NCBI GenBank assembly: GCA_023664775.1 | Contig: JAMPEW010000017.1 | Coordinates: 1-57,383, forward strand | DNA length: 57,383 nt | Source of the DNA: Clostridium sp. | GTDB taxonomy: Bacteria; Bacillota; Clostridia; Lachnospirales; Lachnospiraceae | Reading direction: 5' to 3' | Shown: in pieces, positions 9,885 through 52,706 of the stretch | Layout: every line of letters starts with the position of its first letter | Position numbering within the stretch: the first letter of the stretch is position 1 | The notes under the pieces: model-generated | Databases searched by the model: none | What the model saw: only the letters and a program-made list of their open reading frames with translations | Told to the model about the DNA's origin: nothing | Translations under genes and position numbers: made by a program

Positions 9885-9897
9885 ATTTTTATTTTAT

Positions 9898-26987: not shown

Positions 26988-26998
26988 GGGACATTTGG

Positions 26999-27043
26999 CT
27001 CTGAAATGCTTATTTTACAGGTGTTTCAGAGTTTTTCTTTTCT
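26999..27043 (+). terminator. guaA terminator
   Basis: CTCTGAAA (26999-27006) pairs with TTTCAGAG (27024-27031), followed by TTTTTCTTTTCT. It marks the end of the chromosome-type sequence before the island. Confidence 0.85.
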
Positions 27044-27145: not shown

Positions 27146-27195
27146 TTTACAAAACGAGGATGAAAGCCTATAATGGTCTATAGTGGGTTTATAGT
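27146..27195 (+). promoter_or_regulatory. Promoter and candidate operator of the DISARM operon
   Basis: TTTACA (27146-27151), a 17 nt spacer and TATAAT (27169-27174) form a promoter 55 nt before the first gene. TATAAT/TATAGT repeats begin at 27169, 27179 and 27190, that is 10 and 11 nt apart, starting at the -10 box and running into the transcription start. Such spacing suits an array bound by the XRE-type protein encoded from 27229. Confidence 0.7.
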
Positions 27196-27228: not shown

Positions 27229-27501
27229 ATGGCAGTATCATATAACAATTTGTGGAAACTTATGATTGATAAAAAAACTAATAAAAGTGAATTGTGTAAG
27301 AATGTAAAAATTAGCAGTAGTACTATGGCAAAAATGTCGAACGAAGAGATGGTGGCATTGCCTGTATTAGAAAAGATATGTGCAGAATTAGAATGTAATA
27401 TTGGTGATATTATGGAATTTACCGAGCTTGATAAAGTGAAAGAAAAACTACATGAAGAACAATTGAGTCCTGATAATGGGACAGAAAATATGGGATTATA
27501 A
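27229..27501 (+). CDS. Small XRE/HTH_26 regulator, controller of the DISARM operon
   Basis: 90 residues. The HTH lies at about 5-65: NLWKLMIDKKTNKSELCKNV, then SSSTMAKMSNEEMVALPVLE and KICAELECNIGDIMEF. This is the HTH_26 class often found immediately before cytosine methyltransferase genes. The last 25 residues are charged and probably flexible. The gene lies first in the operon and its stop is 13 nt before the methyltransferase ATG. By analogy with C proteins of restriction-modification systems it may delay or limit expression of the toxic components through the TATAGT repeats upstream. Confidence 0.85.
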   Translation: MAVSYNNLWKLMIDKKTNKSELCKNVKISSSTMAKMSNEEMVALPVLEKICAELECNIGDIMEFTELDKVKEKLHEEQLSPDNGTENMGL

Positions 27502-27514
27502 GGTGGGACAGACC

Positions 27515-28789
27515 ATGAATGACAATGGATTGAGTTACATTGATCTTTTTGCTGGAGCCGGAGGGCTTTCAGAAGGATTTATTCAAAGCGGATATCAGCC
27601 TATAGCCCATGTGGAAATGAATGAATATGCAGCAAAAACCATAGAAACAAGAATTGCTTATTATTACTTAAAAGAAAAGGGGCAACTGAAGAATTATTAC
27701 CAATATGAAAAGTGTCGTATATCAAGAGAGGATTTCTTGAAATTGATTCCGGAAGAAGAATTGAAAACAGTTATTAACAAAGAAATTTCGGAGAAAACAA
27801 TCAAAGGCATTTTTGAAACCATAGATACCATTAAGTCGAACAAAGGGATTGAGAAAGTAGATGTAATTATAGGAGGTCCGCCGTGTCAGGCGTATTCGCT
27901 TGTTGGAAGGGCTCAGAGTAGACATATGATTGTGCCTATGGAAGAGGATACGAGAAATGAATTGTATAAAATGTACGTTCAGTTTTTGACTAAGTATCAA
28001 CCAAGGATATTTGTGTTTGAAAATGTTGCAGGAATCAAAACTGCTCGTGGTGGACAGACATTTAAGAATCTTCAAATGTATATGAAACGAGTCGGGTATG
28101 AAATAGATTATCACGAATTAAATGCACATGATTTTGGCGTACTTCAAAGCAGAAAAAGAGTAATTATTGTTGGATGGTTAAAGGGAACGGGGTATGAGTA
28201 CCCGAAGTTTGATATAGTGCACAATAAAGCGAAGGTGTGGGATTTGCTAAAAGATTTGCCGCCTCTTAAACCAGGGCAGGAAGTAAGAGAGCATACTATT
28301 AATGATATGCGGAGAGTAAAGAAATATGTTAAAGAAAATGAAGTGCGTTTGAAAGAGGATATACTTACTGCTCATATTGCAAGACCACATACTGCACAGG
28401 ATATAGAAATTTATAAAAGAGCAATCAATCTTTGGTTCGAAAATGAACGCCATGAGCGATTAAAGTATGACACTTTACCGGAAAATTTAAAAACTCATAG
28501 AAATAGAACTTCATTTGTAGATAGATTTAAGGTTGTGGAAGGGGATCTGGAATATTGTCATACTATCCTAGCACATTTGGCAAAAGATGGACACTATTTT
28601 ATACATCCAGATATTGACCAGCATAGGTCAATTACTGTAAGAGAGGCTGCGAGATTACAGTCTTTTCCAGATAATTACTATTTTGAAGGATCTCGTACAG
28701 CACAGTTTGTTCAGGTAGGAAATGCAGTGCCGCCAATGATGTCAAAACAAATAGCAGATAAGATAAAAGAACAGTTAATCAAAAAATAG
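27515..28789 (+). CDS. drmMII: C5-cytosine DNA methyltransferase (DrmMII-like)
   Basis: 424 residues; ATG 27515 is preferred (AGGTGGG eight bases upstream, and the family begins at SYIDLFAGAGGLSEGF) over ATG 27476 inside the HTH gene. Motif I is DLFAGAGG, motif IV PPCQ (catalytic C124), motif VI ENVAG, motif VIII QSRKRVIIVG and motif X VGNAVPPMM. Between ~260 and 370 lies the target-recognition region. It should mark the host DNA at one cytosine-containing sequence; that site cannot be read from the sequence. In class 2 DISARM such an enzyme, DrmMII, distinguishes self from phage DNA. Confidence 0.93.
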   Translation: MNDNGLSYIDLFAGAGGLSEGFIQSGYQPIAHVEMNEYAAKTIETRIAYYYLKEKGQLKNYYQYEKCRISREDFLKLIPEEELKTVINKEISEKTIKGIFETIDTIKSNKGIEKVDVIIGGPPCQAYSLVGRAQSRHMIVPMEEDTRNELYKMYVQFLTKYQPRIFVFENVAGIKTARGGQTFKNLQMYMKRVGYEIDYHELNAHDFGVLQSRKRVIIVGWLKGTGYEYPKFDIVHNKAKVWDLLKDLPPLKPGQEVREHTINDMRRVKKYVKENEVRLKEDILTAHIARPHTAQDIEIYKRAINLWFENERHERLKYDTLPENLKTHRNRTSFVDRFKVVEGDLEYCHTILAHLAKDGHYFIHPDIDQHRSITVREAARLQSFPDNYYFEGSRTAQFVQVGNAVPPMMSKQIADKIKEQLIKK

Positions 28790-28802
28790 AGGAGGTGTGC
28801 AA

Positions 28803-31394
28803 ATGGGAATAGTAGAATTAATATATGCTGAATTGAAACAGCAGGAGCTACAGAGAAATCCGTATAGTTGTTTACATATGTCAAATATTGATGTCAATCC
28901 TCATCAGATTGAGGCATTTACATTTGCACTTTCGTCCTTGGAATCTGGGGGCACTATTCTGGCAGATGAAGTCGGACTTGGAAAAACGATTGAAGCGGGA
29001 CTTGTAATTAAGTATTTATTGCAGAGTGGTAGAAATAAGATTTTGCTTATTATGCCATCAAATCTTAGAAAACAGTGGCAGGTGGAACTTGAGGAAAAGT
29101 TTGATATAGCATCGTTGATTGTGGATAGTACGAATTGGGATAACTATCTAGCAGAGATAAAGAAGAAGCAAGCAATAATTATTGTATCGTATCATTTTGC
29201 GTCAAAGAGAAAAGAATATTTAGGAAAAGTTGCTTGGGATTTTTGCATTTTTGATGAGGCACATAGGTTAAGGAATGTTTATAAAAATGGCACGAAGATG
29301 GCGAACTCTTTGTATGAGTTAACAAGAGGAATTCCAAAGATTCTTTTAACAGCGACACCTATGCAGAATACATTGCTGGATATCTATGGTTTGGTTCAAT
29401 ACATTGATGAACGCATTTTTTACAACAAAGTGGTATTTTCTCAAAGGTATATGAAAAACGAGAATTATTTGGCACTTAAGGATAGTTTAAGGACAGTGGT
29501 ACAAAGAACTTTGCGTAAAGAAGTAGCGGAGTATATTCAGTTTTCAGAGAGAAAAGAGATTACGATAGATTTCGAATTATCTCCACCTGAAATTGAATTG
29601 TATGTAAGGATTAATCATTATCTAAAAAAAGAATTATTGTATGCCTTGCCAAAATCGCATCGTACATTAATTACGTCAGTAATACGAAAATTGCTGGCAT
29701 CTTCAAGTATGGCAGTTGCGGAAACATTTAAAACTTTAAAAGGACGATTAGAGGTTCTAAAAGAGACAACGAGAAAGGAAAGTGCAGATGAAAGTATTGA
29801 TTTTTTCCTAAGCTTTTTTGATGATGACGAGATTGAAACAGATGAAGATGATAAGCAGGATGAATTATACACAAGAGAAAAGGTAAATGAGTTCATTCAG
29901 CATGAGATAGATGAAGTGGATGCCATTATTAATAAGGCTGAAAGTATAAGTAAAAATGCAAAGATGACGGCGTTAAAGAAGGCTATTGAAAAGGCATTTG
30001 CATTTCAGACGGAGTCAGTCATAGAACAGAAAATTATTGTATTTACAGAATCTATCAGAACGCAGCAATATATATTTGACGAATTGTCAGCTGTAGGTTA
30101 TGCAGGGCAGATTCTTAAGTTTAATGGCAACACAGATGATGATATAACAAAGCAGATTTATAAGGCATGGAAAACGCAAAATTATGGGAAGTATTTAGGC
30201 AGTAGAAATGTTGAAATAAAGAATGCCATTGTAGAAGCGTTTAGAGACGAATATATGATTCTTCTTGTAACAGATTCCGGTTCAGAAGGTTTAAATCTTC
30301 AGTTTTGTAATACAATTATTAACTATGATTTGCCGTGGAATCCGCAAAAAATAGAACAGCGTATAGGACGTTGCCATCGCTATGGTCAGAAAAATGATGT
30401 TGTAGTAATTAATCTTCTCAATACACAGAATGTTGCGGATAAGCGAGTATATGAAATTCTTTCAGAAAAATTTAAACTTTTCCAAGGGGTATTTGGTGCA
30501 TCGGACAAGGCGATTGGTCTCTTGGAAAGCGGTGCAGATTTTGAGAAAAGAGTAACTCAGATTTATCAGGAATGTAAAACATCTTCAGATTTTACAAAGG
30601 AGTTCAAAGCATTAGAAAAAGAACTTGATAAAAAGAGAAATAAGAAGATGGACGAATTGAAAAATTTGTTTATCTATAAAACTGAAGAACAGCATAAACA
30701 AGAATTCAATCAGATACTACAAGAAATAGAACAATATGATTCGGAACTTGAATATTGGTCGAATATACCAATAGACAAGAATCGGGTTTCTTATCCGTTA
30801 TATTATGAAACGGATAAGAAATTAGAGATTCCAGAAATTATGCATGGCTATTTATTGATTGGAGGTTTATATGTTGATTCTATCATTGAAGAGGTTGTCT
30901 TTGAGATAGTTGATGATAACTGCAAAATATATGGAGTCAGCGACTGGCTAGCAAGAAAACTATGTGCAGAAATTCAAGAAGATGTGTTGTTGGTTAAAAC
31001 ACCAAATAATCAGAAGGTTTTATCGTGCATTGATAAAGTTACTAAATATTTGCAGCAAAGATACACTATTTCAAAACAGGAACTAGTTCAAAGAAATAAG
31101 GATAAGCTATTAAATTGGCTTGAACTAAGAAAAGAAGAGTATGTGTTAAAGACAAAAGATTCATCAGAGCTTGATGCCATAAAAGAGAAGTATGTTGCAG
31201 AGACTGATTTTACACAAAAAATTGCACTGAAAAAGCAGATAGAGTTATGGGAGCAGCAACAGAAGCAAATGATAGAGTCTTTCCACGATGAGATGACATC
31301 GTTGGAAGAAGAAGCAAATAATATGCAGAAAGAATTTGAAGAAGTTGTGTTAAAAACACCACAGTTCATAACCAAAATTGTGATCAAATTTTAG
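28803..31394 (+). CDS. drmD: SNF2-family DNA translocase (DrmD-like)
   Basis: 863 residues; ATG 28803 has GGAGG at 28791-28795. The N-terminal ATPase lobe has DEVGLGKTIEAG (Walker A), FDEAHRLRN (DEAH box) and LLTATPMQN (motif III). The second lobe has VTDSGSEGLNLQFCNTIINY and IEQRIGRCHRYGQ (motifs V, VI). The last ~300 residues are charged and contain coiled-coil stretches (EKELDKKRNKKMDELKN; KKQIELWEQQQKQM). The architecture and location beside drmA-drmB-drmC match DrmD, the SNF2-like subunit of class 1 DISARM. It is nine bases from the Mod-type methyltransferase gene, so stoichiometric expression is likely. Confidence 0.85.
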   Translation: MGIVELIYAELKQQELQRNPYSCLHMSNIDVNPHQIEAFTFALSSLESGGTILADEVGLGKTIEAGLVIKYLLQSGRNKILLIMPSNLRKQWQVELEEKFDIASLIVDSTNWDNYLAEIKKKQAIIIVSYHFASKRKEYLGKVAWDFCIFDEAHRLRNVYKNGTKMANSLYELTRGIPKILLTATPMQNTLLDIYGLVQYIDERIFYNKVVFSQRYMKNENYLALKDSLRTVVQRTLRKEVAEYIQFSERKEITIDFELSPPEIELYVRINHYLKKELLYALPKSHRTLITSVIRKLLASSSMAVAETFKTLKGRLEVLKETTRKESADESIDFFLSFFDDDEIETDEDDKQDELYTREKVNEFIQHEIDEVDAIINKAESISKNAKMTALKKAIEKAFAFQTESVIEQKIIVFTESIRTQQYIFDELSAVGYAGQILKFNGNTDDDITKQIYKAWKTQNYGKYLGSRNVEIKNAIVEAFRDEYMILLVTDSGSEGLNLQFCNTIINYDLPWNPQKIEQRIGRCHRYGQKNDVVVINLLNTQNVADKRVYEILSEKFKLFQGVFGASDKAIGLLESGADFEKRVTQIYQECKTSSDFTKEFKALEKELDKKRNKKMDELKNLFIYKTEEQHKQEFNQILQEIEQYDSELEYWSNIPIDKNRVSYPLYYETDKKLEIPEIMHGYLLIGGLYVDSIIEEVVFEIVDDNCKIYGVSDWLARKLCAEIQEDVLLVKTPNNQKVLSCIDKVTKYLQQRYTISKQELVQRNKDKLLNWLELRKEEYVLKTKDSSELDAIKEKYVAETDFTQKIALKKQIELWEQQQKQMIESFHDEMTSLEEEANNMQKEFEEVVLKTPQFITKIVIKF

Positions 31395-31403
31395 GAGGAT
31401 ACC

Positions 31404-33083
31404 ATGGAGAAACGAGGAAAGTTAGAACTGACATGGGTTGGTAAATACGAAGAAGAAAAATTGGAGCCGAGAATTTTGATTGAAGATAAGTCGAAGTCAT
31501 ATGGTGAAACAGATACGGAAAATATGCTAATTCATGGGGATAATTTGTTGGCGTTGAAAGCATTAGAAAAAGAGTTTACAGGCAAAATTAAATGTATTTA
31601 TATAGATCCTCCTTATAATACAGGAGAGGCCTTTGATGAATATGATGATAATGTTGAGCATTCAATATGGCTACAACTAATGAAGGAACGAATGGAAATA
31701 CTGATTAAGCTTTTAGCAGATGATGGAACCATTTTTGTTCAATTAAATGATGAAGAATTATGCTATTGTAGAGTTTTGATGGACGAAATTTTCGGACGAA
31801 AAAATTTTATAAATATGATTGCTGTTAAGACAAAAAATTCTTCTGGAGCAAGTGGTGGCGGAGAGGATCGTAAATTAAAAAAGAATATCGAACACATTCT
31901 TTGTTATGGTAAACAAGATTTTAAAAAGTTTTATCCATCATATACAACAGTGGAATTGTCGCAATATTTAGAAGATATGAAAATAAATGGAGTCAGTTTT
32001 AAGTATACTATGGTATTTACATCTTTAGGGAAACGTGAATACTTTAAAACCATAAAGGATGGTGCAGGTGAGGATATCATTATTTACAAACATAAAGGAT
32101 ATGAAACAAAAAGCATAAGGCAGTTAGCAATTGAAGATGAAATTACAGAGATAGAAGCTTTTGCAAAATACTATGACTATGTTTGTACAACGGAAAATGC
32201 ACAGACATCAATAAGAACTAGGGTTAGAGAAGCAACAGATGATTTAGATAATTTGTATTCTATAGATTATCATCCAGTGTCTGGTCGAAATAAAGGAAAA
32301 TTAACAACTGTACATTTTGTTGGGAAAAATAAACGTTTAGTTAGTTGGTTTAAAAATGTTTGTGTAAAAGAAAGAGGTCATATATTCAAAAAGGAAAAAG
32401 TAGGCTCTTTATGGGATGATTTGAATTGGAATAATGTAAATAGAGAAGGCGGAGTGGTTTTTTCGGGAGGCAAAAAACCAGAGGTATTGCTTGAACGCAT
32501 AGTGGAATTAGCTACATTACCAGGAGATATTATTTTAGATAGTTTTTTGGGGTCTGGAACAACTATGGCAGTTGCTCACAAAATGAATAGGAAATGGATA
32601 GGGATCGAAATGGGTGAACATGCGTATTCACTTTGTAAGGCAAGAATTGACGGTGTTATTGATGGAGAGCAAGGAGGAATATCAAAGGATGTCAATTGGC
32701 AAGGCGGTGGTGGATACAGATTCTATGAACTTGCAGAACCTCTTCTTGTAAAGAATACTACATTGCCGATTTATCAGCTTAATCCATCCTATACGTGGGA
32801 TATGGTTTGCGAGGCAATTTGTAAGATTAAAGGATTTACATATGCACCTTCAGGGGAATTTCAAGGATATTCTTCGGAAAATAGATTTATACATATTACA
32901 GAAGAATTTGTGAATGCAAAGTATGTAATGTCTGTTATGAGGTCTTTAGGTGAGAAACAGAGCTTAATGATTTATTGCAAGAAAAATCAAGCTGATATGA
33001 TATTACCAGGAAATGTGGAAGTTAAGAAGATTCCTAGGGATTTATTGGATAAGTGCAATTTTGAAAGCGAGGTGCAGGAATAG
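31404..33083 (+). CDS. Mod-type N6-adenine (or N4-cytosine) DNA methyltransferase
   Basis: 559 residues. Motif IV DPPYNTG (D68-Y71) comes before motif I FLGSG (381-385), the beta-class order seen in type III Mod and related enzymes. NMLIHGDNLLALKAL precedes it as in Mod proteins, and residues ~125-340 between the motifs would be the target-recognition part. The D-P-P-Y catalytic motif favours adenine N6 methylation. It overlaps the Res-type helicase gene by one base, as mod/res pairs usually do. It might act as the DISARM class 1 methylase DrmMI, although its Mod-like form differs from what I would expect for DrmMI; hence no symbol. Confidence 0.88.
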   Translation: MEKRGKLELTWVGKYEEEKLEPRILIEDKSKSYGETDTENMLIHGDNLLALKALEKEFTGKIKCIYIDPPYNTGEAFDEYDDNVEHSIWLQLMKERMEILIKLLADDGTIFVQLNDEELCYCRVLMDEIFGRKNFINMIAVKTKNSSGASGGGEDRKLKKNIEHILCYGKQDFKKFYPSYTTVELSQYLEDMKINGVSFKYTMVFTSLGKREYFKTIKDGAGEDIIIYKHKGYETKSIRQLAIEDEITEIEAFAKYYDYVCTTENAQTSIRTRVREATDDLDNLYSIDYHPVSGRNKGKLTTVHFVGKNKRLVSWFKNVCVKERGHIFKKEKVGSLWDDLNWNNVNREGGVVFSGGKKPEVLLERIVELATLPGDIILDSFLGSGTTMAVAHKMNRKWIGIEMGEHAYSLCKARIDGVIDGEQGGISKDVNWQGGGGYRFYELAEPLLVKNTTLPIYQLNPSYTWDMVCEAICKIKGFTYAPSGEFQGYSSENRFIHITEEFVNAKYVMSVMRSLGEKQSLMIYCKKNQADMILPGNVEVKKIPRDLLDKCNFESEVQE

Positions 33084-35809
33084 TGAGTTCAGTAGATAAA
33101 ATCAAATGGGCTATGAGTCTGCGTGACCCTCAATATGAAGCACTAAAATATTTTGATGCTATCAGTTCTAAAATTGAATACAGAACAGTGAGTAAGTCAG
33201 AGGCAGAAAAGATTGCATCTGAGAATTGCCAAGAGCCGCACCGGATATCAGTAGATAAGGAATTTGATTTTCCGTCATTTTGTTTTGATATGACTACGGG
33301 TATTGGAAAATCACGTCTTATGGGAGCGTGCATTTATTATTTGTACAAGACTAAAGGTTATAAGCATTTCTTTATTCTTGCACCAGGAAATACGATTTAT
33401 GACAAAATGCGTAGAGAGTCTGTACCGGGACATCCCCAATATATGTTTAAAGGTCTCGAAGCTGAGATGGGAAGACCAAAGGTATATGATGGAGAGAATT
33501 ATTTGTCTTATCCGGTGAAGTATATGCAGGAGGAAATAGTTGTAGAAAAGACTTCGGATATTCAGATTTTCATTTTTAATATTTCGAAGATTTTTACTCG
33601 TGGGGATTTGGAGTTTAAATTCCATAAGTTTAATGAGAATTTGGGTGGCTCATTTGCAGAAGTGCTTCGTTCTTTTGATGATTTGGTAATTTGTATGGAT
33701 GAAGCCCACAGATATTATGCACCTGCATCTAAGGTTGCCATTAACTACTTAAATCCGGTATTAGGATTAGAGTTTACAGCAACGCCTAAAAGTACGAATA
33801 AAAATATCATCTATCATTATGGATTAGAAGATGGTGCTGGAAAGTTTTTGAAGATTCCTGTAGTTATGGGAAGAACTAATACGGCAGGATATTCAGAGGA
33901 TGATATCGAAGAAATGAAATTGAAGGATGGAATTAAGCTTCATGAGAGAAGAAAATCCATCGTGTATAAATATTGCATAGAGAATAATTTGGAACAGGTA
34001 AAGCCGATAGTCCTAGTCGCTTGTAAAGATACAACCCATGCAAAGAAGATTAAAGATAAGATTGATTCAGATTCCTTTTTTGGAGGAAGGTATGTTGGAA
34101 AGGTTATTGAAATTGATTCAAGTACCAGTGGCGCAGAAACGGAAGAGAATATTCAGAAGTTGCTGACTATTGAGAAGAATACGAACCCGATTGAAATTGT
34201 ATTGCATGTGTATAAATTGAAAGAAGGTTGGGATGTAAACAACCTGTTTACGATTATTCCTTTGAATGCGGCAAAGAGTGATATATTAGCATTGCAGACA
34301 ATCGGTCGTGGGCTTAGATTGCCATTTGGTGAGATTACTGGAATAGAAGAGCTTGACACGCTTGATATCGTAGCACATGACCATTATCGTGAGATTATTG
34401 ATGATATTAAAAATAATCCTGTATTTAAGAAGAGAAATCTGGATGAAGAAGAAATACCTGATACAAAGACTGTGCAAGTTGAACCAGCAGTAGAAAATAA
34501 GCAGTTGTCTTTGTTTGATGAAGCGTTTAAGGAAAGTGGTATTAAATCATATCAAGATTTGAACAAACAAGGTACTGTGGATAATCTTTATGAAGAATAT
34601 CAAAAAGCATTTATAAAGAAGACTATATCAACAAAGAAATCTGATGACAATGATGCACAGATGTCTATTTTTGATTTTTTTGAGGAACAGACCAATGCAG
34701 ATAATTCGAGAGTGGATACAGCAGACGGATATCAATTGAATGATGGTAAAAATGAAACTGATGTAATTACAGTGATTCAGCCGGATAATACTACGTTACA
34801 AATTGATATTCAAAAAACTTTAGGAAGTAAGAATGTGCTTCCTTATGCAAAGCTGGAGTTTATCAAGAAAGTTGAAGAATTAAAGAGAGTAGCTATTTCT
34901 GTACCTAAAATTGGTATTAGTTATAGCTCTACGATTGAGTTCAAACCATTTATAGTAAAGAGAACTATCCAAGATTTTGATATTGCAGCATCCCGAATTG
35001 AACGATATGACACAATTAATGACAAGTTATTACAGGTACTTGATGCAGATGCATTAATCGTTGAAAATCCAGAAAATATGTTGGCAGTTTCACTTTTGGA
35101 TAGTATTCCGGAATTTGATTCTGATGATGCAGAATTTATATTAGATGTTGTAGAACAATATTTAGCTTTGATTGAAGGTTCTGTTGATGATAAAAAGAAG
35201 ATAGTTAGGAGATATGCAACGGTTATTGTGAATGATTTGAAAAGTCAGATATATGCGTCAAAGGAAGAAAGTACCGAGTTTGTATACAAGGTGCAAAAGG
35301 ATCTTATTGTATTTGGTTCATTTGTAAAAAATATGAAAGCGGACGGAAGGCTTCATTTCAAAAAAGAAGTTCCAGACAAGAAAAATATTAAGCACTATTT
35401 GTTTGAAGGATATAAGAAATCATATTATTCGGAAAATGCTTTTGATAGTGATGATGAAAGACGGTTATCTGTAGTTTTGGAAGAGGATGACGAGGTAGTG
35501 CGTTTTATTAAGCCGCCTCTAAATCAGCTTGGATTGTTTTACAGAGCTGCAAAACAGTATAATCCGGATTTCTTAGTTGAAACAAAGGATAAGAAATATA
35601 TGATAGAAGTGAAGGCGACTAACCAAACTGATAATGAAGAAGTGCAAGAAAAAGCAAAGGCTGCAATCAAGTGGTGCAAATGTGCATCCGAAGTAGATGC
35701 AGATGGAAAGTCTTGGGAATATCGTTTGATACCAAGCGATAAGATTATCATTGGTAACACATTGAAATATGTGATCGGTTTAGCGGCACCTATTTCAGTA
35801 GAAGAATAA
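33083..35809 (+). CDS. Res-type helicase-nuclease (type III restriction-like)
   Basis: 908 residues starting at GTG 33083, one base inside the Mod stop codon, with GCGAGG upstream; an ATG at 33112 is the alternative. Helicase superfamily 2 motifs: TTGIGKSRL (Walker A variant), CMDEAHRYY (DEAH), EFTATPKS, and QTIGRGLRLP (motif VI). Near the C-terminus a PD-(D/E)XK motif is visible: D829 in PDFLVE, then E842 and K844 in MIEVKAT. The combination is that of type III restriction subunits, which translocate along DNA and cut between sites. Its place inside a DISARM operon, between the methyltransferase and drmA, is unusual. Confidence 0.85.
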   Translation: MSSVDKIKWAMSLRDPQYEALKYFDAISSKIEYRTVSKSEAEKIASENCQEPHRISVDKEFDFPSFCFDMTTGIGKSRLMGACIYYLYKTKGYKHFFILAPGNTIYDKMRRESVPGHPQYMFKGLEAEMGRPKVYDGENYLSYPVKYMQEEIVVEKTSDIQIFIFNISKIFTRGDLEFKFHKFNENLGGSFAEVLRSFDDLVICMDEAHRYYAPASKVAINYLNPVLGLEFTATPKSTNKNIIYHYGLEDGAGKFLKIPVVMGRTNTAGYSEDDIEEMKLKDGIKLHERRKSIVYKYCIENNLEQVKPIVLVACKDTTHAKKIKDKIDSDSFFGGRYVGKVIEIDSSTSGAETEENIQKLLTIEKNTNPIEIVLHVYKLKEGWDVNNLFTIIPLNAAKSDILALQTIGRGLRLPFGEITGIEELDTLDIVAHDHYREIIDDIKNNPVFKKRNLDEEEIPDTKTVQVEPAVENKQLSLFDEAFKESGIKSYQDLNKQGTVDNLYEEYQKAFIKKTISTKKSDDNDAQMSIFDFFEEQTNADNSRVDTADGYQLNDGKNETDVITVIQPDNTTLQIDIQKTLGSKNVLPYAKLEFIKKVEELKRVAISVPKIGISYSSTIEFKPFIVKRTIQDFDIAASRIERYDTINDKLLQVLDADALIVENPENMLAVSLLDSIPEFDSDDAEFILDVVEQYLALIEGSVDDKKKIVRRYATVIVNDLKSQIYASKEESTEFVYKVQKDLIVFGSFVKNMKADGRLHFKKEVPDKKNIKHYLFEGYKKSYYSENAFDSDDERRLSVVLEEDDEVVRFIKPPLNQLGLFYRAAKQYNPDFLVETKDKKYMIEVKATNQTDNEEVQEKAKAAIKWCKCASEVDADGKSWEYRLIPSDKIIIGNTLKYVIGLAAPISVEE

Positions 35810-35824
35810 AACAGGAGGCTGTGT

Positions 35825-38800
35825 ATGGCAGATATAAAGGATTTTAAACATGCTATTGTTCGTCAGAAGATATTAGAGGCTGTAAAGAAAGATTTAATTG
35901 GTCCATCTTCGGAGTGTGAAGAACTTAATGAAGTACCAACAAGCAGTTATATTACGGGGTTACTATATCCTGCTGATACAGCTGTAACAGAGGATGAGAA
36001 TTACTTTGATGTGGAGTTTACGGAGAAGAAATTTGATGCTGATTGGGAAGTTATGGAAGCGGGGATTTTTGTGGATGAAGAGCCTGAAGATAGAATTAAA
36101 AGTGGATTTCAAAAATCTTCTTCAGTAGGAGTTTCATTTTATGTTGATGATGATGTATCTAAAATTAATGCATACATTAATTGGGGAAAATATCATGCAG
36201 AACAGATACAGAGTGAGGTTGTTGATGGAACCTTAGAAGAAGATACCGAGAATAAGAAAAAGAAGAAACATACTGTATATGTTAGGGAACAAATGCATGA
36301 TGTTGTAGAGATTGATTTGAATAATGGAAAGCGTTCCGAACAGATTATACTTGCTTCCAATAGCAATATTTATATCTATGCAATGAAAATGCAATTAAAC
36401 AATGGATATAAAATGGTATCTGTATATCTTCATAATAATGATAAATCAGACGGTGAAGAGAAAGAATATGAGAAAGTTATGTTCCAAGTGGAAATGCTAA
36501 TTGCAGATGATTTGATGAGCCCAATCTTCATTCCGGAATACGTGTGCAGAAAAGTGGAACTTGAAGATGAGTATTACTATAAGGGAAGACCTGTATATGC
36601 ACGTGGTAGAGGCTGTGCTGTTTCATGGAGCATGGCAGTAGACGAGGTCAATGCAACATCTGTAAGGACGGCATTTATACCAGATTATGAGATTCCAAGT
36701 GTAAGTGCACAGATAGAGGATATGCCTGAGCATGCTTTTTCTATGTTGCAAATGGGTTCACCGAAGAAAAAGACAGAAGTAATAGAGAATTTACGTCTTT
36801 TGACATCTATATATGGAGATTGGATTGAGGAAGTTCTAGAGAATGATACATCCATGAAGGATGATAAGTTTAGGGCGACAGGACAAGCTATCATAGAAAA
36901 GTGTAATGATGCAAATCGTAGAATGAATGTGGGTATTGACTTGATTGAGAACAATGAGAAGGCTTATCAAGCATTTGTTTTTATGAATCAAGCAATGTAT
37001 TTGCAGAGAAGCATTACATCATTCTCGAAGTACTACGGAAGTGGAATTTCTTGTAGTCTTCGTGATTTTATGAGTGATATGCCAGAGAAAGGTAGAAAAC
37101 AAGATCATAGTGAATGGAGACCTTTCCAGATTGCATTTGTTTTATTGAATCTGTACGGAATTATGGATGGTGAATCGCTAGAGAGGGAAATTGTCGATTT
37201 GCTTTATTTCCCTACAGGCGGTGGTAAAACAGAAGCATATTTAGGTTTGATAGCTTTTACAATAGCGTATAGAAGATTAACAGCTAAAGAAGAAAACGAG
37301 TATGAAAAAGATGGTGGTGTGACGGTATTTTTACGATATACACTTAGATTGCTTACAACACAGCAAAGAGACCGTTTGACGAGACTTATTGTTGCGATGG
37401 AACAGTTAAGAGAAAAGAATACAGAACTGTATGGTAATGAAAGAATTACCATTGGTTTTTGGGTTGGTGGAAATGTTACGCCAAACAAATTCAGTGATTA
37501 TTGTGATACGGATCAGTTTAAGAAGAAGGATTTTTTACGTAAGTTAACAAAGCAAATAATAAAATGTCCTTATTGTGGTAAGCCGATTGAAAGAGATGAT
37601 TACATAATAAATGAGAAAGGAAAATCGGTTCAAATTCATTGTTCGGATGATTATTGTATGTTTTCAAAGAAAACTGGAAGAACGATTCCAGTATATCTTG
37701 TGGATGAAGAAATTTATGCAAAATGTCCGACAGTAATTATTTCAACAGTTGATAAATTTGCGAGACTACCTTGGACAGAGCAGGTTGGATTATTATTTGG
37801 AAAAACAGGCAGGTGCTGTTCGAGATGTGGTCATATTGCGATTGGAGAAAAACATCCGGGAAGACATAATGCTGATACAGCAGCAGGACTTGATAAAGCG
37901 GTTACAACAGATTGTAAACCATTTTACCCACCGGAACTTATTATACAAGATGAGTTGCATTTGATAACGGGACCTTTAGGTACAATTTATGGTGGTTATG
38001 AAACGGTTGTAGAAGAAATGTGCTGTATTGAAAAAAATGGCAAAAAGATTCGTCCTAAGTATGTTGTATCTACTGCTACAATTAAAAATGCAGGCGAGCA
38101 GATTAAGTTCCTGTATGGAAGAGATAATTTTGCACAGTTCCCGCCAAGTGGATTTGATACAAGAGACTCATTCTTTATCAGAGAGGTTCCGTTACCACGG
38201 GAAAACTTAGCATCATTATCAGAGGAAAGGTTGCAAGAATTGATTGATGATGGTCAAAAGCCATTCCGCCAGTATGTAGGGATTTGTGCAAGTGGTCAGT
38301 CTGTTAAGACAACACTTATTCGATTATATTCAATTATTTTGCAAACAGCATTGGATTTGGCAAAAGAGCCAGAATTTGAAGATTATATAGATCCTTACTA
38401 CACATTGATTGGATATTTTAACAGTATTCGAGAGTTGGGTGGTGCCGTTCGCCTTCTGGACGATGATATTACGAGTAGAATTCGTGTGGTCAAGAATAAA
38501 TATAATAGTCTAGCACAAAGATATATTGGTATCGATGGAAAGAAAGAAATTACATCTCGTATCCCCTCATGGGAGATTGCACGGGTGCTTGAAAAGTTAG
38601 CAATTTCTTATGACAAGAAAAAAGAAAGGCAGAGCTGTTATGATGTTGTCATTGCCACAAATATGATTGCTGTTGGTATGGATGTGGATCGTTTAGGTCT
38701 TATGACTGTGGTAGGGCAGCCGAAGCAGAACTCAGAGTATATTCAGGCAACAAGCCGAGTGGGACGCCAGCATCCAGGTATCATTTTTACGATATATAAT

Positions 38801-39292
38801 CCATATAGACCACGTGACTTATCTAATTATGAGAACTTTGTTGGATTTCATTCGCAAATGTATAGATACGTTGAAGGTACGACTGCTACACCTTTTGCGG
38901 CAAGAGCAAGAGACAGAGTTCTTCATGCATTAATAGTGTCATTACTTAGATTGAAGTTTGAAGAGATGGCTGATAACGGAGGTGCTACTAATATCAATAA
39001 AATCTCCGATAATGATATTAAGCGTGTAAAGGAAATGATACTTGAGAGAGTAAAGGTTACGGCACCATCATCTTACGTGGATACGGGAAAAGAAATAGAT
39101 GAGTTTATAAGTATATGGAAGAATATTGCGAAAATTGATAAGTTATACTATTTCGTTCCTTATGTAACAGATGATAAGAAGAGATTGCTTACATATTATG
39201 GAGAATTTTATGGTGATAAGGAAAAACCAACATTAAGCTCTATGCGTGATGTTGAACAGTCATCTACAGTATTTTATTGGGAGGGTGTGTAA
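35825..39292 (+). CDS. drmA: DISARM helicase DrmA
   Basis: 1155 residues, AGGAGG seven bases upstream. After a ~440-residue N-terminal region, an SF2 helicase core starts: FPTGGGKTEA (K468) is Walker A, QDELH (D709, E710, H712) the DEXH box, and TNMIAVGMDVDRLGLM and QATSRVGRQHPG motifs V and VI. Two pairs of cysteines suggest bound zinc: CPYCGKP (~580), with CSDDYC, and CCSRCGH (~660). The size, the long N-terminus and the pairing with a DUF1998 gene identify DrmA. DrmA and DrmB form a complex that loads on DNA and is central to DISARM. It shares one base with drmB. Confidence 0.9.
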   Translation: MADIKDFKHAIVRQKILEAVKKDLIGPSSECEELNEVPTSSYITGLLYPADTAVTEDENYFDVEFTEKKFDADWEVMEAGIFVDEEPEDRIKSGFQKSSSVGVSFYVDDDVSKINAYINWGKYHAEQIQSEVVDGTLEEDTENKKKKKHTVYVREQMHDVVEIDLNNGKRSEQIILASNSNIYIYAMKMQLNNGYKMVSVYLHNNDKSDGEEKEYEKVMFQVEMLIADDLMSPIFIPEYVCRKVELEDEYYYKGRPVYARGRGCAVSWSMAVDEVNATSVRTAFIPDYEIPSVSAQIEDMPEHAFSMLQMGSPKKKTEVIENLRLLTSIYGDWIEEVLENDTSMKDDKFRATGQAIIEKCNDANRRMNVGIDLIENNEKAYQAFVFMNQAMYLQRSITSFSKYYGSGISCSLRDFMSDMPEKGRKQDHSEWRPFQIAFVLLNLYGIMDGESLEREIVDLLYFPTGGGKTEAYLGLIAFTIAYRRLTAKEENEYEKDGGVTVFLRYTLRLLTTQQRDRLTRLIVAMEQLREKNTELYGNERITIGFWVGGNVTPNKFSDYCDTDQFKKKDFLRKLTKQIIKCPYCGKPIERDDYIINEKGKSVQIHCSDDYCMFSKKTGRTIPVYLVDEEIYAKCPTVIISTVDKFARLPWTEQVGLLFGKTGRCCSRCGHIAIGEKHPGRHNADTAAGLDKAVTTDCKPFYPPELIIQDELHLITGPLGTIYGGYETVVEEMCCIEKNGKKIRPKYVVSTATIKNAGEQIKFLYGRDNFAQFPPSGFDTRDSFFIREVPLPRENLASLSEERLQELIDDGQKPFRQYVGICASGQSVKTTLIRLYSIILQTALDLAKEPEFEDYIDPYYTLIGYFNSIRELGGAVRLLDDDITSRIRVVKNKYNSLAQRYIGIDGKKEITSRIPSWEIARVLEKLAISYDKKKERQSCYDVVIATNMIAVGMDVDRLGLMTVVGQPKQNSEYIQATSRVGRQHPGIIFTIYNPYRPRDLSNYENFVGFHSQMYRYVEGTTATPFAARARDRVLHALIVSLLRLKFEEMADNGGATNINKISDNDIKRVKEMILERVKVTAPSSYVDTGKEIDEFISIWKNIAKIDKLYYFVPYVTDDKKRLLTYYGEFYGDKEKPTLSSMRDVEQSSTVFYWEGV

Positions 39293-41055
39293 TGAATTTT
39301 TATAAAAAACTGGGTGAAATACGTCCAAATCAATTAATAACTACATATGGACCAGGCTCAATTATGGATGCAGTAAATGATTCGTTAACGGTATTGGACA
39401 TTGAGTATTGGGATAACAATAATATTGGAAAGGAAATTAGAGATGCCAGATTGGCTAGCTATATGAATGTTAGGAAATTCTTTATGCCAAAGACTGGTGG
39501 AAAAGAGGATATTCCGGTTATTTCATTTCCTTACTATCATGTATGTTCAAAGGGAACATGTAAGTTCTTGTTTGATATGAGAGAGTATTTTGATATTGAT
39601 CAATATAAAAATGCACAAGGTGAAGTAAAATGCCCTAAATGTGGATTTCCAGCATATCCTTCCAGATTTATTACAGTATGTGAAGAAGGACATATGGATG
39701 ATTTTCCGTATCGTTGGTGGGTTCATCATGGAGAAACCAGTTGCAAGGAAGATATGTTCCTCAAATCGATGGGAAACACCTCATCACTTGCAGAACTTCG
39801 TGTCGAGTGTGCATGTGGTGCAAAAAGAGTAATGTCGGGAGCGATGCAAAAAGAAAAGTTTGCAGGCTTAAATTGTTCTGGCAATTATCCCCATAGACCG
39901 AGTGTAAAACCTAAAATTTGTAAGAAAAGTGTTGTTCCGAGTCAGAGAGGTGCATCAAATGTGTACTTTTCGGTTACAAGAAATGCTATCTCTATTCCAC
40001 CTTGGACAAACCCTATTAATGATATTATGAGTGCACAACGAACAACTATTGAAACATTAGTAGAAGCGATGGGAGAAGAAGATGGATTAGGATTTGCATA
40101 TAATAAATATTTTGCAGAGAGATATTCTTGGGATGATTTTAAAGCAGCATATGACAGATTAAGTCAGAATATAAAAGAGTTTACAGAATTGAAAGAAATG
40201 GAATATGCAGCAATTACACATCATGAAGATGTGGAATATCAGCATGATGTAAAATATTTTAAGGCTCAAGAAGTCGAAATTAAAGGTAGTCTTAAAGAAT
40301 ACATTTCAAGAGTAATAAAAATACATCGCTTGAGAGAAGTAAGAGTGTTGACTGGTTTCGCAAGACTTGAAGCACCGGAACCGGAAATCGAAGAACAAGC
40401 ACATGTTGTAAAATTGAAATGTGGTTCAGGAGAGAAATGGCTTCCTGCAGTGGAAATTAATGGAGAAGGTGTATTCATTGAGTTGAATAGAGGAAAAATT
40501 GATCAGTGGATACAAATTGAGCAGGTTAAGACTCGTTCAGGCAAATATGCCGAATGTTATGCAACATATTGCGAAAAGAAGGGGTGGGAGAATTTTAAAC
40601 CTCGAAATGCGGAATATGTATTACTTCATACACTATCACACATGTTGATTAAAGAAATGGCAATGCAGTCTGGATATTCTTCATCTGCCTTACATGAAAG
40701 AATTTATAGTAGCGAGAATATGTGTGGTTTGCTGATTTATACGGGAGCTGCAGATAAGGAAGGTTCACTAGGCGGTCTTGTCGAACTCGGTGGTATGAAT
40801 AAGTTATTGCCACTTCTTAAAGGTGCTTTAGAAAATGGACTAACATGTACAACAGATCCGGAATGTTTTATGAAAAATCCAACAAGTGACCGATTGAATG
40901 GTGCGGCATGTCATTCATGCACCATGATTTCAGAAACTGCATGTGAGAATGGAAACAGATTGCTTGATAGAGCATTGGTTGTTCCTGTTCCTGAACACGA
41001 GGAGATGGGTTACTTTAGAGGACTGGTGAGAGATTTATGTGGAATTCAAGTGTAA
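39292..41055 (+). CDS. drmB: DISARM DUF1998 protein DrmB
   Basis: 587 residues; the ATG overlaps the drmA stop (TAATG) and has GGGAGG at 39279-39284. The start KLGEIRPNQLITTYGPGSIM is the typical DrmB N-terminus. Zinc-type cysteine clusters are CPKCGFP (~110), CACGAKR (~180) and, in the C-terminal DUF1998 domain, AACHSCTMISETACENGNRL. DrmB is the adaptor that binds DrmA and makes the DrmAB complex recognise DNA ends or single-stranded DNA. Length agrees with characterised DrmB (~600). Its end overlaps drmC by 19 nt. Confidence 0.92.
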   Translation: MNFYKKLGEIRPNQLITTYGPGSIMDAVNDSLTVLDIEYWDNNNIGKEIRDARLASYMNVRKFFMPKTGGKEDIPVISFPYYHVCSKGTCKFLFDMREYFDIDQYKNAQGEVKCPKCGFPAYPSRFITVCEEGHMDDFPYRWWVHHGETSCKEDMFLKSMGNTSSLAELRVECACGAKRVMSGAMQKEKFAGLNCSGNYPHRPSVKPKICKKSVVPSQRGASNVYFSVTRNAISIPPWTNPINDIMSAQRTTIETLVEAMGEEDGLGFAYNKYFAERYSWDDFKAAYDRLSQNIKEFTELKEMEYAAITHHEDVEYQHDVKYFKAQEVEIKGSLKEYISRVIKIHRLREVRVLTGFARLEAPEPEIEEQAHVVKLKCGSGEKWLPAVEINGEGVFIELNRGKIDQWIQIEQVKTRSGKYAECYATYCEKKGWENFKPRNAEYVLLHTLSHMLIKEMAMQSGYSSSALHERIYSSENMCGLLIYTGAADKEGSLGGLVELGGMNKLLPLLKGALENGLTCTTDPECFMKNPTSDRLNGAACHSCTMISETACENGNRLLDRALVVPVPEHEEMGYFRGLVRDLCGIQV

Positions 41056-41735
41056 AAATTGATTACATAGCTGGATTAATTGTGGATGCTTTAGATAATT
41101 ATATAGTAGATGAAGTTAACGCTTCATTTACCAAGGTAATTATGGAGTTGAAGGAGCATTTTCCTAATTGTAGTGACGAAGAGATAAGGGATATTATTAG
41201 TTTGTGTATGCAATTATATTCAGCGAAGAAAACGGAACGAGCAGATTTGGTATTAACTGCACCTGATTCTTTTAGAGTAAAAGCATTACGAACTAAAGAA
41301 ATATTACAGGAACTAATAACGGATACGGAAAAAAGTTTAACTATTACAGAATATTCTATTTCAGATTATTTTGCAGATATGCTAGATGTGATTATAAGAA
41401 AAAGCCAGCAGGGTGTGTATGTCAGACTATATGTAAATGATATGGAAAAGCAGAAAGCTTCGTTGGACAGACTAATGGCATATAAATCTCGTTTTCTCAA
41501 AGTATATGAATATCAAAAGCAAGAAGATGACAAGATGGCAGCGTTGCATGCAAAAATGCTTGTATCTGATGCGAAGAAATCTTTGGTTTCTTCTGCGAAT
41601 CTTTCCTATCATGGAATGCAGGGCAATGTGGAAATGGGATTTTTGATTGAATCGTCGGATAAAGCAAAGCAGATAGAGGAAGTTATGAAGGAAATGGTAA
41701 GAATGAAGGTGTTCTGTAAATATGAGGGAAGGTGA
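41037..41735 (+). CDS. drmC: DISARM phospholipase D-type protein DrmC
   Basis: 232 residues. A single HKD motif is in LHAKMLVSD (H171, K173, D178), followed by SSANLSYHGMQGNVEMGFLI, the usual N/E continuation. Residues ~1-90 are helical, with a likely N-terminal domain (FPNCSDEEIRDIISLCMQLY). One HKD per chain means that the active site forms by dimerisation, as in bacterial nucleases of the phospholipase D family. In published DISARM work DrmC is dispensable for part of the protection. The start lies 19 nt inside drmB, so translation is coupled. Confidence 0.9.
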   Translation: MWNSSVKIDYIAGLIVDALDNYIVDEVNASFTKVIMELKEHFPNCSDEEIRDIISLCMQLYSAKKTERADLVLTAPDSFRVKALRTKEILQELITDTEKSLTITEYSISDYFADMLDVIIRKSQQGVYVRLYVNDMEKQKASLDRLMAYKSRFLKVYEYQKQEDDKMAALHAKMLVSDAKKSLVSSANLSYHGMQGNVEMGFLIESSDKAKQIEEVMKEMVRMKVFCKYEGR

Positions 41736-41741
41736 ATCCTA

Positions 41742-43394
41742 ATGGATAAACAATCATTAAAAGGCATAATTGCTCAAGGCGAAACAACAACCGTAGAATT
41801 TAAGTCATGGATAAAGGCGGATTCAATAAAGGAGAGAATCAACCTTGTTGTTCCGGAACTTATTGCATTTGCAAATTGCAAGGGCGGTACAGTTTACTTA
41901 GGTATTGAGGATAATGGGGACGTGACAGGTTGTTCTGGTAAATACGATCTTCAAAATATATGTGAGGCTATTTATGATAGAACAAGACCACCGATGTTTA
42001 CGGATATTGAGGAAATTGATTATCAGGGACAAAAGATAATCGCGATATCTGTTACACCTGATGGAAATACTTATGCGACAACGGATGGCAGGTGCCTGAA
42101 AAGACTCGGAAAAAATCCAAAGCCATATTATCCTGATGAAATGAACCATATATATTCAGTATCACAGACATCAGATTTTTCAAGCCAGATTATTGCTGAA
42201 AGCTCAGTTGATGATATTAATCTCATGGTAGTTTATAGCTTAAAAGAAAAACTTAAAATACGAGATGCTGACTCTACATTGCCGGAATTGGATGATATGG
42301 CATTTTTGAAAGATCTCGGACTTACAGCCGAAAATAATAGACAAGTTAAGCTTACTATAGCTGGATTGTTATTTGCTGGAAAAGATACTTCAATCCAAAG
42401 GTTGCTGCCGCAGGCGGAAGTGATTTATTTACATTACGATAAAGACAATTTAGAGGAATATAATTCCCGACTGGATATGAAACAACCTATTATCACAATT
42501 CTTGATAGGCTCACAGAGAAGGTACAGAATGATAATAAAATTCAGAATATACAGATAGGGTTATTTAGGCTTGAGATTGCAGATTTTTCAGAAAAGGTAT
42601 TTCAGGAGGCTTTGCTAAATGCACTGTCACACAGAGATTATCAACAGCTTGGGGCGGTGTATGTAAAACATTATCCTGATAAAATTGTAATAGAAAATCC
42701 AGGTGGATTTCTTGACGGAATTACGGAAAAGAATATTATTACACATCCATCCGTACCAAGAAACAAGCTGATAGCGGAAACTTTACAGAGGTTAAAATAT
42801 GTTCAGAGAACAGGACATGGTGTAGATATTATTTTTAGAGAAATGTTATCGATGGGAAAACCATATCCCATATACAGAGTATTCAATGATGCTGTACAGC
42901 TTACAATAGCTAGTGCAACAGAGTATGTTGACTTTGTAAAATTTATAGTGAATGAGCAGGATACGAAACAGATTTTTCTTTCGCTTTCCGAATTGATGAT
43001 TTTGAGATATGTAGCTGATAATAGGCAGATTAAGCTCGATAAGGCACAGGAATTGACGCAGGTTTCCGAGGACGAAGTAAGAAAGAGTTTAACAAGTCTT
43101 ATCAAGTATGGACTATTAGAAACATCAGGAAAAGACTATATGTTGACAGCTCGTGTGTATGAAGCAGTAAAATCCGATGTAGAATATACAAGGGATAAGA
43201 CTGTTCAGTATATTAGAGCAAAAGAAATGATTGTAGAATACATCAAAAAGCATGGTTCAATCACTAAGTCAACGGTGCAAGTGCTGTGTGGCTTTAGTGA
43301 ACAACAGGCAAGACGGACATTAGAAAAAATGCAAAAAGAAGACATTATAAAATTAGCTAATGCAGGTCGATATGCAAAGTACACATTGTTTTAA
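41742..43394 (+). CDS. AlbA_2/Schlafen-type ATP-binding protein, DISARM accessory
   Basis: 550 residues, six bases after drmC. Residues ~10-135 are an AlbA_2 (Schlafen-like) domain: TTVEFKSWI, a Gly-rich NCKGGTVYLGIEDNG strand and CLKRLGKNPKPYYP. The middle has the HATPase_c_4 pattern (EALLNALSHRDYQQLGAVYV, then GFLDGITEKN). The end has winged-helix parts (KHGSITKSTVQVLCGFSEQQARRTLEKMQ). Proteins of this build are usually called transcription regulators or RNA/DNA-binding ATPases, and some are antiphage factors. Its coupling to drmC suggests a role as DISARM regulator or extra effector. Confidence 0.85.
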   Translation: MDKQSLKGIIAQGETTTVEFKSWIKADSIKERINLVVPELIAFANCKGGTVYLGIEDNGDVTGCSGKYDLQNICEAIYDRTRPPMFTDIEEIDYQGQKIIAISVTPDGNTYATTDGRCLKRLGKNPKPYYPDEMNHIYSVSQTSDFSSQIIAESSVDDINLMVVYSLKEKLKIRDADSTLPELDDMAFLKDLGLTAENNRQVKLTIAGLLFAGKDTSIQRLLPQAEVIYLHYDKDNLEEYNSRLDMKQPIITILDRLTEKVQNDNKIQNIQIGLFRLEIADFSEKVFQEALLNALSHRDYQQLGAVYVKHYPDKIVIENPGGFLDGITEKNIITHPSVPRNKLIAETLQRLKYVQRTGHGVDIIFREMLSMGKPYPIYRVFNDAVQLTIASATEYVDFVKFIVNEQDTKQIFLSLSELMILRYVADNRQIKLDKAQELTQVSEDEVRKSLTSLIKYGLLETSGKDYMLTARVYEAVKSDVEYTRDKTVQYIRAKEMIVEYIKKHGSITKSTVQVLCGFSEQQARRTLEKMQKEDIIKLANAGRYAKYTLF

Positions 43395-43887: not shown

Positions 43888-43934
43888 GTCCTCGCAGAGT
43901 CTTATTTTTTGGGCTTTGTGGGGACTTTTTGTTT
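43888..43934 (+). terminator. Terminator of the DISARM operon
   Basis: GTCCTCGCAGAGTC pairs with GGCTTTGTGGGGAC over 14 bp (G-U pairs included), followed by TTTTTGTTTTA. It is preceded by a short palindrome, CTATCGAATTCGAATAG (43863-43879). Between 43935 and 44139 I see no gene. Confidence 0.7.
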
Positions 43935-46189: not shown

Positions 46190-46244
46190 CAGCAAAAAAC
46201 TAACCACACCATAACCATAGCACAATTTGCTACAGGAGGCTTCG

Positions 46245-52613: not shown

Positions 52614-52706
52614 ATAAATATGATAACATTTATGGCGGAACACTCTGTATTGGCAAAATGCAGTACATTATTTAATGAAAAAGCTTGCAGAGCAGAAAGG
52701 AAAAAC

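Follow-up and report, generated by a model that had tools for sequence, protein, structure and literature searches.

Two types of defence island system associated with restriction-modification (DISARM) are distinguished by PADLOC: type I, with DrmA, DrmB, DrmC, DrmD and DrmMI and no DrmE, and type II, with DrmA, DrmB, DrmC, DrmE and DrmMII (PMC9252829); elsewhere the methylase component is worded 'DrmMI and/or DrmMII' (PMC9142583). DrmAB is reported to bind 5'-overhang DNA, DrmC is dispensable and often missing, and the question of the DISARM nuclease is open, its recruitment being called a mystery by Bravo et al. (PMC9142583). Type III systems in which an additional gene for a helicase-like ATPase lies 5' of mod are described from more than 500 genomes by Murray et al. 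(2021; PMC8259958), and these helicase-Mod-Res systems act as restriction-modification without drmABC. Bell et al. (2025 preprint; PMC12458937) report many uncharacterised DISARM-like classes; 'DrmD' is absent from that paper, and in the available part of its text Mod-Res is not encountered. In the literature available to us our search found no description of a DISARM with Mod-Res, although such a gene set may be listed in the tables of Ofir et al. (2018). Here we describe such a locus, at positions 27229-43394 of a 57,383-base stretch (the window) of the 2.65-Mb genome of a gut-type Clostridium sp. (contig JAMPEW010000017.1). A C5 methylase gene, an SNF2 helicase gene and a type III-like mod-res pair precede drmABC in an order that recurs in 16 loci, and the recognition domain of Mod has been exchanged with stand-alone type III systems.

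The locus is a co-directional run of genes on the + strand. A reading of the sequence alone had proposed its gene set as one operon, and all eight large open reading frames (ORFs) proved to be present, with families confirmed by PADLOC, NCBIfam and Pfam profiles (E, expect value):

27476..28789, + strand: drmMII, C5 cytosine methylase (alternative start ATG 27515; PDLC02649, E 1.6e-164; PF00145)
28797..31394, + strand: drmD of the DrmD_b kind, SNF2 helicase/translocase (PDLC02619, 1340.7 bits; NF038318 'DISARM_DrmD_b', 1307.4 bits, cut-off 950)
31404..33083, + strand: mod, type III-like beta-class methylase, predicted N6-adenine or N4-cytosine (PDLC03636, MTase_III, E 6e-133; PF01555)
31917..32474, + strand: exchangeable target recognition domain of Mod, about residues 172-357, bounds approximate
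33083..35809, + strand: res, type III-like superfamily 2 (SF2) helicase with C-terminal PD-(D/E)XK nuclease (PDLC03648, REase_III, E 4.5e-119; PF04851; TnsA-like PF08722)
35564..35626, + strand: Res nuclease motif PD...EVK, residues 828-848
35825..39292, + strand: drmA, short form DrmAS, YprA-type SF2 helicase (NF038325 'DISARM_DrmAS', 1259.3 bits, cut-off 950)
39277..41055, + strand: drmB, DUF1998/MZB zinc-binding partner of DrmA, a separate gene (NF038324, 576.9 bits, cut-off 240; PF09369)
41037..41735, + strand: drmC, phospholipase D-like nuclease (PDLC02616, E 8.6e-101; PF13091)
41742..43394, + strand: AlbA_2/Schlafen - RecG-C-like gene (PF04326, PF13749)

The core genes drmA, drmB and drmC are thus all present by profile, with the DrmC score against the NCBIfam model DrmC_I (116.1) lying below the cut-off of 133. 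Judged by its profile matches, the locus fits neither PADLOC type. With type I it shares DrmD, through the DrmD_b model (the other DrmD model, NF038317, scores 225, below its cut-off of 610), and the lack of DrmE, and it has no DrmMI; with type II it shares DrmMII and not DrmE. In line with the sequence-only reading, no drmE was found: there was none among the best PADLOC families (at most 25 per protein) of 20 proteins from the operon and its neighbours, the remaining genome not having been searched. Its claim of both classes of methylase here is not supported. The second methylase belongs to the type III Mod family, and Mod was rejected as a DrmMI: its 25 best PADLOC families, of 60, include no DrmMI, and NCBIfam gives none. 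In addition, the class 1 locus of Microvirga pR24_2 has an annotated C5 methylase, and the 'and/or' wording quoted above (PMC9142583) counts against the claim as well. The type III features are the expected ones: Mod is of the beta class, its DPPY motif preceding FxGxG with a variable region in the middle, Res joins an SF2 helicase to a C-terminal PD-(D/E)XK domain, and a helicase-like ATPase gene lies 5' of mod (order DrmD-Mod-Res), as in three-gene type III systems.

The order DrmMII-DrmD-Mod-Res-DrmA-DrmB-DrmC is found in the window and 15 further loci (L025, L026, L028, L030, L031, L032, L048, L049, L050, L051, L057, L082, L101, L102 and L117), with Mod split into two ORFs in L026 and DrmD split near its end in L049. 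The carriers belong to several families and at least two classes of one phylum, Bacillota, together with unassigned viral contigs. The order is intact down to identities to the window of 56% for Res and 47-49% for DrmA; the spacing between Res and DrmA ranges from -46 to +20 nucleotides (nt), and the drmB/drmC overlap is exactly 19 nt in 16 of 16 loci, window included. Two partial loci, L027 and L029, bring the clade to 18. The gene set and its stability can be regarded as very nearly certain, and the suggestion of a third DISARM architecture with a nuclease of its own is borne out to the extent that the arrangement is conserved, contains a PD-(D/E)XK helicase-nuclease and matches neither PADLOC type.

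These loci were collected in several ways. Searching named genome contigs for DrmA turned up 8 relatives. With the DrmAS model, matches of any strength were obtained in 20 of 391 and in 12 of 392 genomes, those in 5 and 4 lying over the cut-off (8 distinct); in 14 control genomes the model matched in 3 and exceeded the cut-off in 1. Res was matched in 13 of 398 and in 11 of 300 genomes, and a Res scan of viral contigs gave 6 loci. Among plasmid records, 5 of 99 with Res matches and 7 of 85 with DrmA matches were opened; six genomes with weak Res matches and 14 with DrmAS-model matches below 27 bits were left unexamined. Phyla outside Bacillota, sampled through plasmids only, gave no Res or DrmA match at or above 60% identity, and no Res match was seen in phage records. 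Eight of the 18 loci came solely from searching with DrmA; they are closely related to the window (DrmA identity 75-90%), which leaves the independent weight to the others.

Active-site motifs, protein distances, identity along Mod and close pairs were compared in a set of 14 loci from which L026 (Mod in two ORFs), L027, L029 and L117 were excluded. Res carries its Walker A motif, a DEAH-type box, TATPK, GRGLR and PD...E-x-K in all 14, with small changes around the DEAH box in three. Equally present throughout, with minor variants, are DPPY and FxGxG of Mod, GGPPCQ and ENV of DrmMII, Walker A, DEAH and RIGRCHRYGQ of DrmD, Walker A and DELH of DrmA, HxK of DrmC and the cysteines of DrmB. A structural model of Mod (predicted local distance difference test, pLDDT, 72.6; predicted template modelling score, pTM, 0.57) has as its best fold match the Mod subunit of EcoP15I (4zcf_A; E 2.6e-18, template modelling score 0.39 over the query, about 15% identity in the fold alignment). 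For Res, the sole Protein Data Bank sequence match at E up to 0.01 is EcoP15I Res (4zcf_C, E 8.7e-7), which was also second in the fold search. DrmA matches Serratia DrmA (7s9v_A) at E 1.7e-165, aligned from chain residue 133, and begins only 8 residues before the aligned part; the Serratia trigger loop (residues 176-232) lies within that part, where the alignment is weak. In class 1 the DrmA N-terminus is reported to hold an EVE-like domain, predicted to read modified bases (Bell et al., PMC12458937), for which the short DrmA seems to have no room.

The tie between Mod-Res and drmABC is seen from both sides. Full-length Res is 56-92% identical to that of the window in complete DISARM loci, and in sampling from the Res side drmABC adjoins Res in 5 of 5 loci at or above 56% (window, L082, L117, L101, L102). 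In 22 other Res loci (L083-L088, L089-L093, L103-L106, L118-L124) the main match is at most 46%, with short stretches up to 57% as in L088, and no drmA was found within the stretch available. An SNF2 gene or remnant accompanies Res in 11 of these (L083, L084, L085, L088-L093, L103, L118) and was not seen in the other 11, again within the stretch available; the 22 include close kin (L086/L104/L105 and L120/L122) and the deletion remnant L088. From the DrmA side, Mod-Res is present in 7 of 7 genomes with a DrmAS match above 1250 bits, in none of 10 other DrmA-like loci (360-970 bits, G731 among them) and in none of the 7 plasmid DrmA loci opened.

In a tree of 28 Res proteins, from which L117 is absent, the 16 DISARM rows lie on one side of a branch with full support in the Shimodaira-Hasegawa-like approximate likelihood-ratio test (SH-aLRT 100), and the DISARM label needs a single change of context, showing common descent of these Res proteins. 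The 13 DISARM rows of the DrmD tree likewise form one group (100/99), with class 1 DrmD far beyond the stand-alone SNF2 proteins; L049 (split ORF) and L096 were left out of that tree, and L094, labelled class 1 and annotated only as a DEAD/DEAH helicase, sits on a very long branch. Because branches in this tree are long, we relied more on direct identity: over about 600 residues the DrmD here shares 41-46% with stand-alone SNF2 proteins, whereas its identity to class 1 DrmD is 22-25%. The sequence-only reading was right that a drmD is present, in that the DrmD_b model is matched, and misplaced its kinship. The SNF2 gene filed as DrmD_b may instead have its origin in type III systems of three genes, whose extra helicase it resembles. 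Distances of DrmD, Res, DrmA and DrmB correlate at 0.86-0.94. Independent movement of the Mod-Res pair, which that reading named as one way for its novelty claim to fall, is found in part: the pair stays with drmABC in 16 of the 18 clade loci, one exception being cut by a contig end and the other having a truncated res, whereas the wider Mod-Res family occurs without drmABC and the recognition domain of Mod wanders.

Mean pairwise identity along Mod is 77-84% in the first three 30-residue bins, falls to 9-27% over residues 151-330 and returns to 58-81% from residue 361. One case is the pair L050 and L057, whose islands share about 98% identity across more than 17 kb in genomes of different families, which indicates recent horizontal transfer. 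Stretches of 13.0 kb and 4.8 kb to either side match at about 98%, with a dip to 35-60% over about 1 kb in Mod; every other 100-base bin is at or above 83%, save one that borders the dip (75%) and the place where the alignment is cut off. The dip recurs, to 31-58%, between L030 and L048, against a less similar background. Across 34 close pairs (Res identity above 0.74) the Mod recognition region has a mean identity of 0.24, and is below 0.25 in 24; the corresponding region of DrmMII has a mean of 0.72, is below 0.5 in two, and by this measure is conserved.

Recognition regions of 33 Mods (15 from DISARM, 18 not) group across contexts: that of L031 lies with stand-alone L083 and L118 at 69%, and L049 pairs with L103 at 66%. 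L056, on the same contig as L032, and L105, whose recognition region is identical to that of L086, were left out of the counts of mixed groups given below and of the Mod trees. On the recognition-region tree the DISARM label needs 9 changes, 6 of them forced by well-supported branches; shuffled labels need about 11 on average and were as low in 58 of 500 shuffles. On trees of the Mod N-part and C-part the label changes 4 times and once, respectively. By these counts the segment of Mod beyond the recognition domain remains with its operon, while the recognition domain is drawn from a common pool. Exchange of recognition domains is known for type III mod genes (PMC3311624); our search of the available literature found no report of it inside DISARM. 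Neither a run of 8 or more of one base nor a 2-6 base unit repeated 5 times, as might allow phase variation, occurs in the window operon, and some relatives' mod genes contain A8 or (TA)5. Silent recognition cassettes were considered and rejected: beyond mod itself, matches to Mod in this genome are confined to one 692-residue frame on contig C44.

We lean, by little more than even chances, towards a stable third DISARM arrangement in which SNF2-Mod-Res takes the place of class 1 drmD-drmMI, with a little-varying C5 methylase before it and drmABC behind, and which works as follows; what each protein does, how Mod-Res would hand over to DrmAB and what DrmD contributes are all predictions from the genes. 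DrmMII would mark host DNA at a little-changing motif, and Mod at another one, dictated by its exchangeable recognition domain. On unmarked invading DNA the Mod-Res complex would bind its sites, Res would move with ATP, and its C-terminal PD-(D/E)XK nuclease would cut. Type III enzymes of the EcoP15I kind leave short 5' overhangs. The cut ends would be the type of substrate on which DrmAB loads; DrmAB would then unwind the DNA, DrmC and Res serving as nucleases and DrmD as an accessory translocase. That the type III module and the DISARM core are functionally coupled at all we put at about even. Held more tentatively still is the specific proposal that the module is the sensor and nuclease of the whole system, so that swapped Mod domains would re-aim DISARM and Res would make the 5'-overhang ends for DrmAB, which, otherwise blind to sequence, would thereby be sequence-directed. 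If that is true, this is a DISARM with modular specificity, drawn from a common pool of type III recognition domains.

Several observations weigh against this account. Co-inheritance and correlated distances are what is expected of any operon travelling whole, and are no proof of physical coupling; moreover, distances of DrmMII correlate with those of DrmD, Res, DrmA and DrmB at only 0.57-0.65, and drmMII may have a history of its own. One genome, G731 (L058), exceeds the DrmAS cut-off (968.1 bits, pieces joined) without Mod-Res. L027, which begins inside Mod at a contig end, has no drmC match. In L029 drmABC persists although res lacks its first part and the genes upstream of it are all missing, next to an IS110 transposase gene; the two halves may thus be able to persist separately. 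The Mod C-part clade is weakly supported (87/46; 88% of bootstraps), and groups that mix DISARM and stand-alone recognition regions number 3 of 5 at a 35% identity limit, 3 of 12 at 45% and 2 of 17 at 55%, the small number at the highest limit implying that the exchange is in large part old. For Res the structural model is poor (pLDDT 63.2, pTM 0.37) and gives a hint of fold only. Finally, partly purified Eco86II yielded no extra-helicase peptide, and the extra helicase gene is dispensable for methylation in three-gene type III systems (PMC8259958), from which DrmD may matter little to Mod-Res in the window.

The alternative that survives best, doubtful on balance yet to be taken seriously, is that two separate systems share one transcript, DrmD_b-Mod-Res and a DISARM-like core of DrmMII and DrmABC protecting independently and exchanging no intermediates. 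The 22 loci with Mod-Res, with or without SNF2, and no drmA speak for it, as do two such Res groups present in 28 and 72 of 5426 E. coli genomes (context from one strain each), the systems of Murray et al., which restrict without drmABC (PMC8259958), and L029 with drmABC alone. It sits less well with an order unbroken in 16 loci, to 56% Res and 47-49% DrmA identity, with a module placed between drmMII and drmABC and not at an edge, and with a separate branch for DISARM Res (and, weakly, for the Mod C-part); that independent systems would have come apart by now is our own inference. Improbable is a role of Mod-Res mainly in methylation, whether for self-marking or gene regulation, with a Res that no longer cuts and defence left to DrmAB and DrmC: exchange of mod recognition domains is indeed known from regulons (PMC3311624), but the helicase and nuclease motifs of Res stand in 14 of 14 loci, with the DEAH-box surroundings changed in three, and an idle nuclease would be expected to decay. 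Chance, or a one-off insertion or mosaic in a single genome without lasting meaning, has next to nothing in its favour beyond the mosaic nature of defence islands and the fall in GC content beside the operon, and was rejected, being refuted by 16 loci of the same order in several families, at least two classes and viral contigs.

If the coupled third arrangement is correct, Res may be the missing DISARM cutter. With a dedicated helicase-nuclease fixed in the operon, the nuclease question is in any case open to direct test. L050 and L057, near-identical but for the Mod recognition domain, form a natural pair for asking whether restriction-enzyme recognition directs DISARM.

The setting of the operon is described by the following features:

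26997-27033: terminator-like hairpin after guaA, from a hairpin scan
27146..27174, + strand: promoter-like site TTTACA-17-TATAAT (11/12), upstream of the operon, a consensus match only and one of the two best sites
27229..27501, + strand: XRE-like helix-turn-helix (HTH) regulator of 90 residues, first gene of the operon, an extra ORF
43888..43925, + strand: strong terminator-like hairpin after the operon (15 pairs, then a T-run)

Promoter-like sites as a class number 78 against a shuffled mean of 75.0 and are weak evidence alone; terminator-like sites number 11 against 6.0. The HTH ORF explains a start of the gene run at 27229, and has relatives at the same place in L025, L026, L032, L048, L051, L101 and L117, other small ORFs lying there in some further loci. 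Gaps and overlaps between neighbouring operon genes are tiny, and the overlaps are as the sequence-only reading gave them: 1 nt for Mod/Res, 19 nt for drmB/drmC, and 1 nt for drmA/drmB with ATG 39292 as the drmB start (16 nt with TTG 39277). Its view that the genes form one expression unit is likely right, to judge by this spacing. The same reading had counted the AlbA-type protein as a member of the system. It is not conserved: the slot after drmC holds an AlbA/Schlafen gene in the window and, distantly, in L026 and L028, Vsr in L029, L050, L101 and L102 (by Pfam) and in L057 and L082 (by resemblance), HNH in L025 and GmrSD in L031, and since other genes take its place the AlbA gene is not core, and is probably a co-transcribed passenger. 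L032 has a Vsr gene upstream. The proximity of Vsr to a C5 methylase would suit the repair of deaminated 5-methylcytosine.

Right after guaA (ORF end 26987) the GC content falls from about 0.45 to about 0.33-0.35, so the gene run seems to open a defence island. Considered as an attachment site, the 3' end of guaA (111 bases) occurs only once in the genome, and the 20 of 30 repeat families listed include no direct repeat that matches it. Downstream of the operon, the 612-residue product of 44248-46086 resembles GHKL/sacsin-like ATPases weakly and falls in no PADLOC family; its gene may be an uncharacterised defence gene. It is followed by a TOTE-type primase (PF22548, E 3.3e-84) with an SF2 helicase part at 46227-48686; a relative lies after drmC in L029 (16814-18711). 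An HTH protein and then an ImmA/IrrE-type peptidase, with matches to RmrA and CapH/CapP models, are found at 49952-50960, and an SbcD/SbcC-like pair, the second gene matching LmuB at E 2.9e-17, at 52620-57033.

The stand-alone SNF2-Mod-Res loci found here fit the description of Murray et al. (PMC8259958). Six of them (L089, L090, L091, L092, L132 and L133) have differing genes between SNF2 and Mod, the contents being Abi, AIPR with VapC, AAA with DUF4276, an AAA ATPase with an S8 peptidase, or an unknown protein, and the interval looks like a cargo slot for accessory effectors. A small HTH gene before the E. coli SNF2 gene (L132, 2270-2470) bears the NCBI name MAD1 of the methylation-associated defense system. 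In L088 a single ORF (8201-10369) runs from the start of an SNF2 helicase into the end of a Res, and is apparently what a natural deletion has left.

Among known systems, the class 1 loci of Deinococcus AJ005 p96k and Microvirga pR24_2 share the drmABC order with the window and have an SNF2 helicase gene and a methylase gene before drmA; that of Microvirga pR24_2 also has an HTH gene and a C5 methylase gene in front, as here. They differ in the gene after drmD, which is annotated as MmeI-like type IIL where the window has a type III Mod and then Res, and in a DrmD only 22-25% identical. The window DrmA, unlike Serratia DrmA (7s9v), is without most of the N-terminus. Class 2 has the drmABC core and the C5 methylase in common with the window and differs in its drmE, of which none was found in the window proteins scanned, while the window adds drmD, Mod and Res. 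PADLOC and NCBIfam models fit the window DrmD, DrmMII and DrmA well, from which it appears that their curators have met such proteins.

Three-gene type III systems (Eco86II, BspHIV) have, like the window, a helicase-like ATPase gene 5' of mod and res and a PD-(D/E)XK Res, but in the available text neither drmABC nor a C5 methylase is described there. The likeness to Eco86II is one of architecture only, E. coli NCTC86 not being among the matches listed (40 of 99, 60 of 72, 28 of 28 and 36 of 72). EcoP15I shares the fold match of Mod and the sequence match of Res, whereas the window pair is embedded in DISARM. ARMADA, BRIGADE and TALON (Bell et al., PMC12458937) have a YprA-family helicase in common with the window. 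ARMADA also has an SNF2-like helicase and a methylase, the latter PglX-like, unlike that of the window; BRIGADE and TALON have other nucleases, and the helicase of the window is of the split DrmA/DrmB kind of DISARM. Every part of the locus belongs to a known family; what is new is their combination, its fixation, and an exchangeable specificity.

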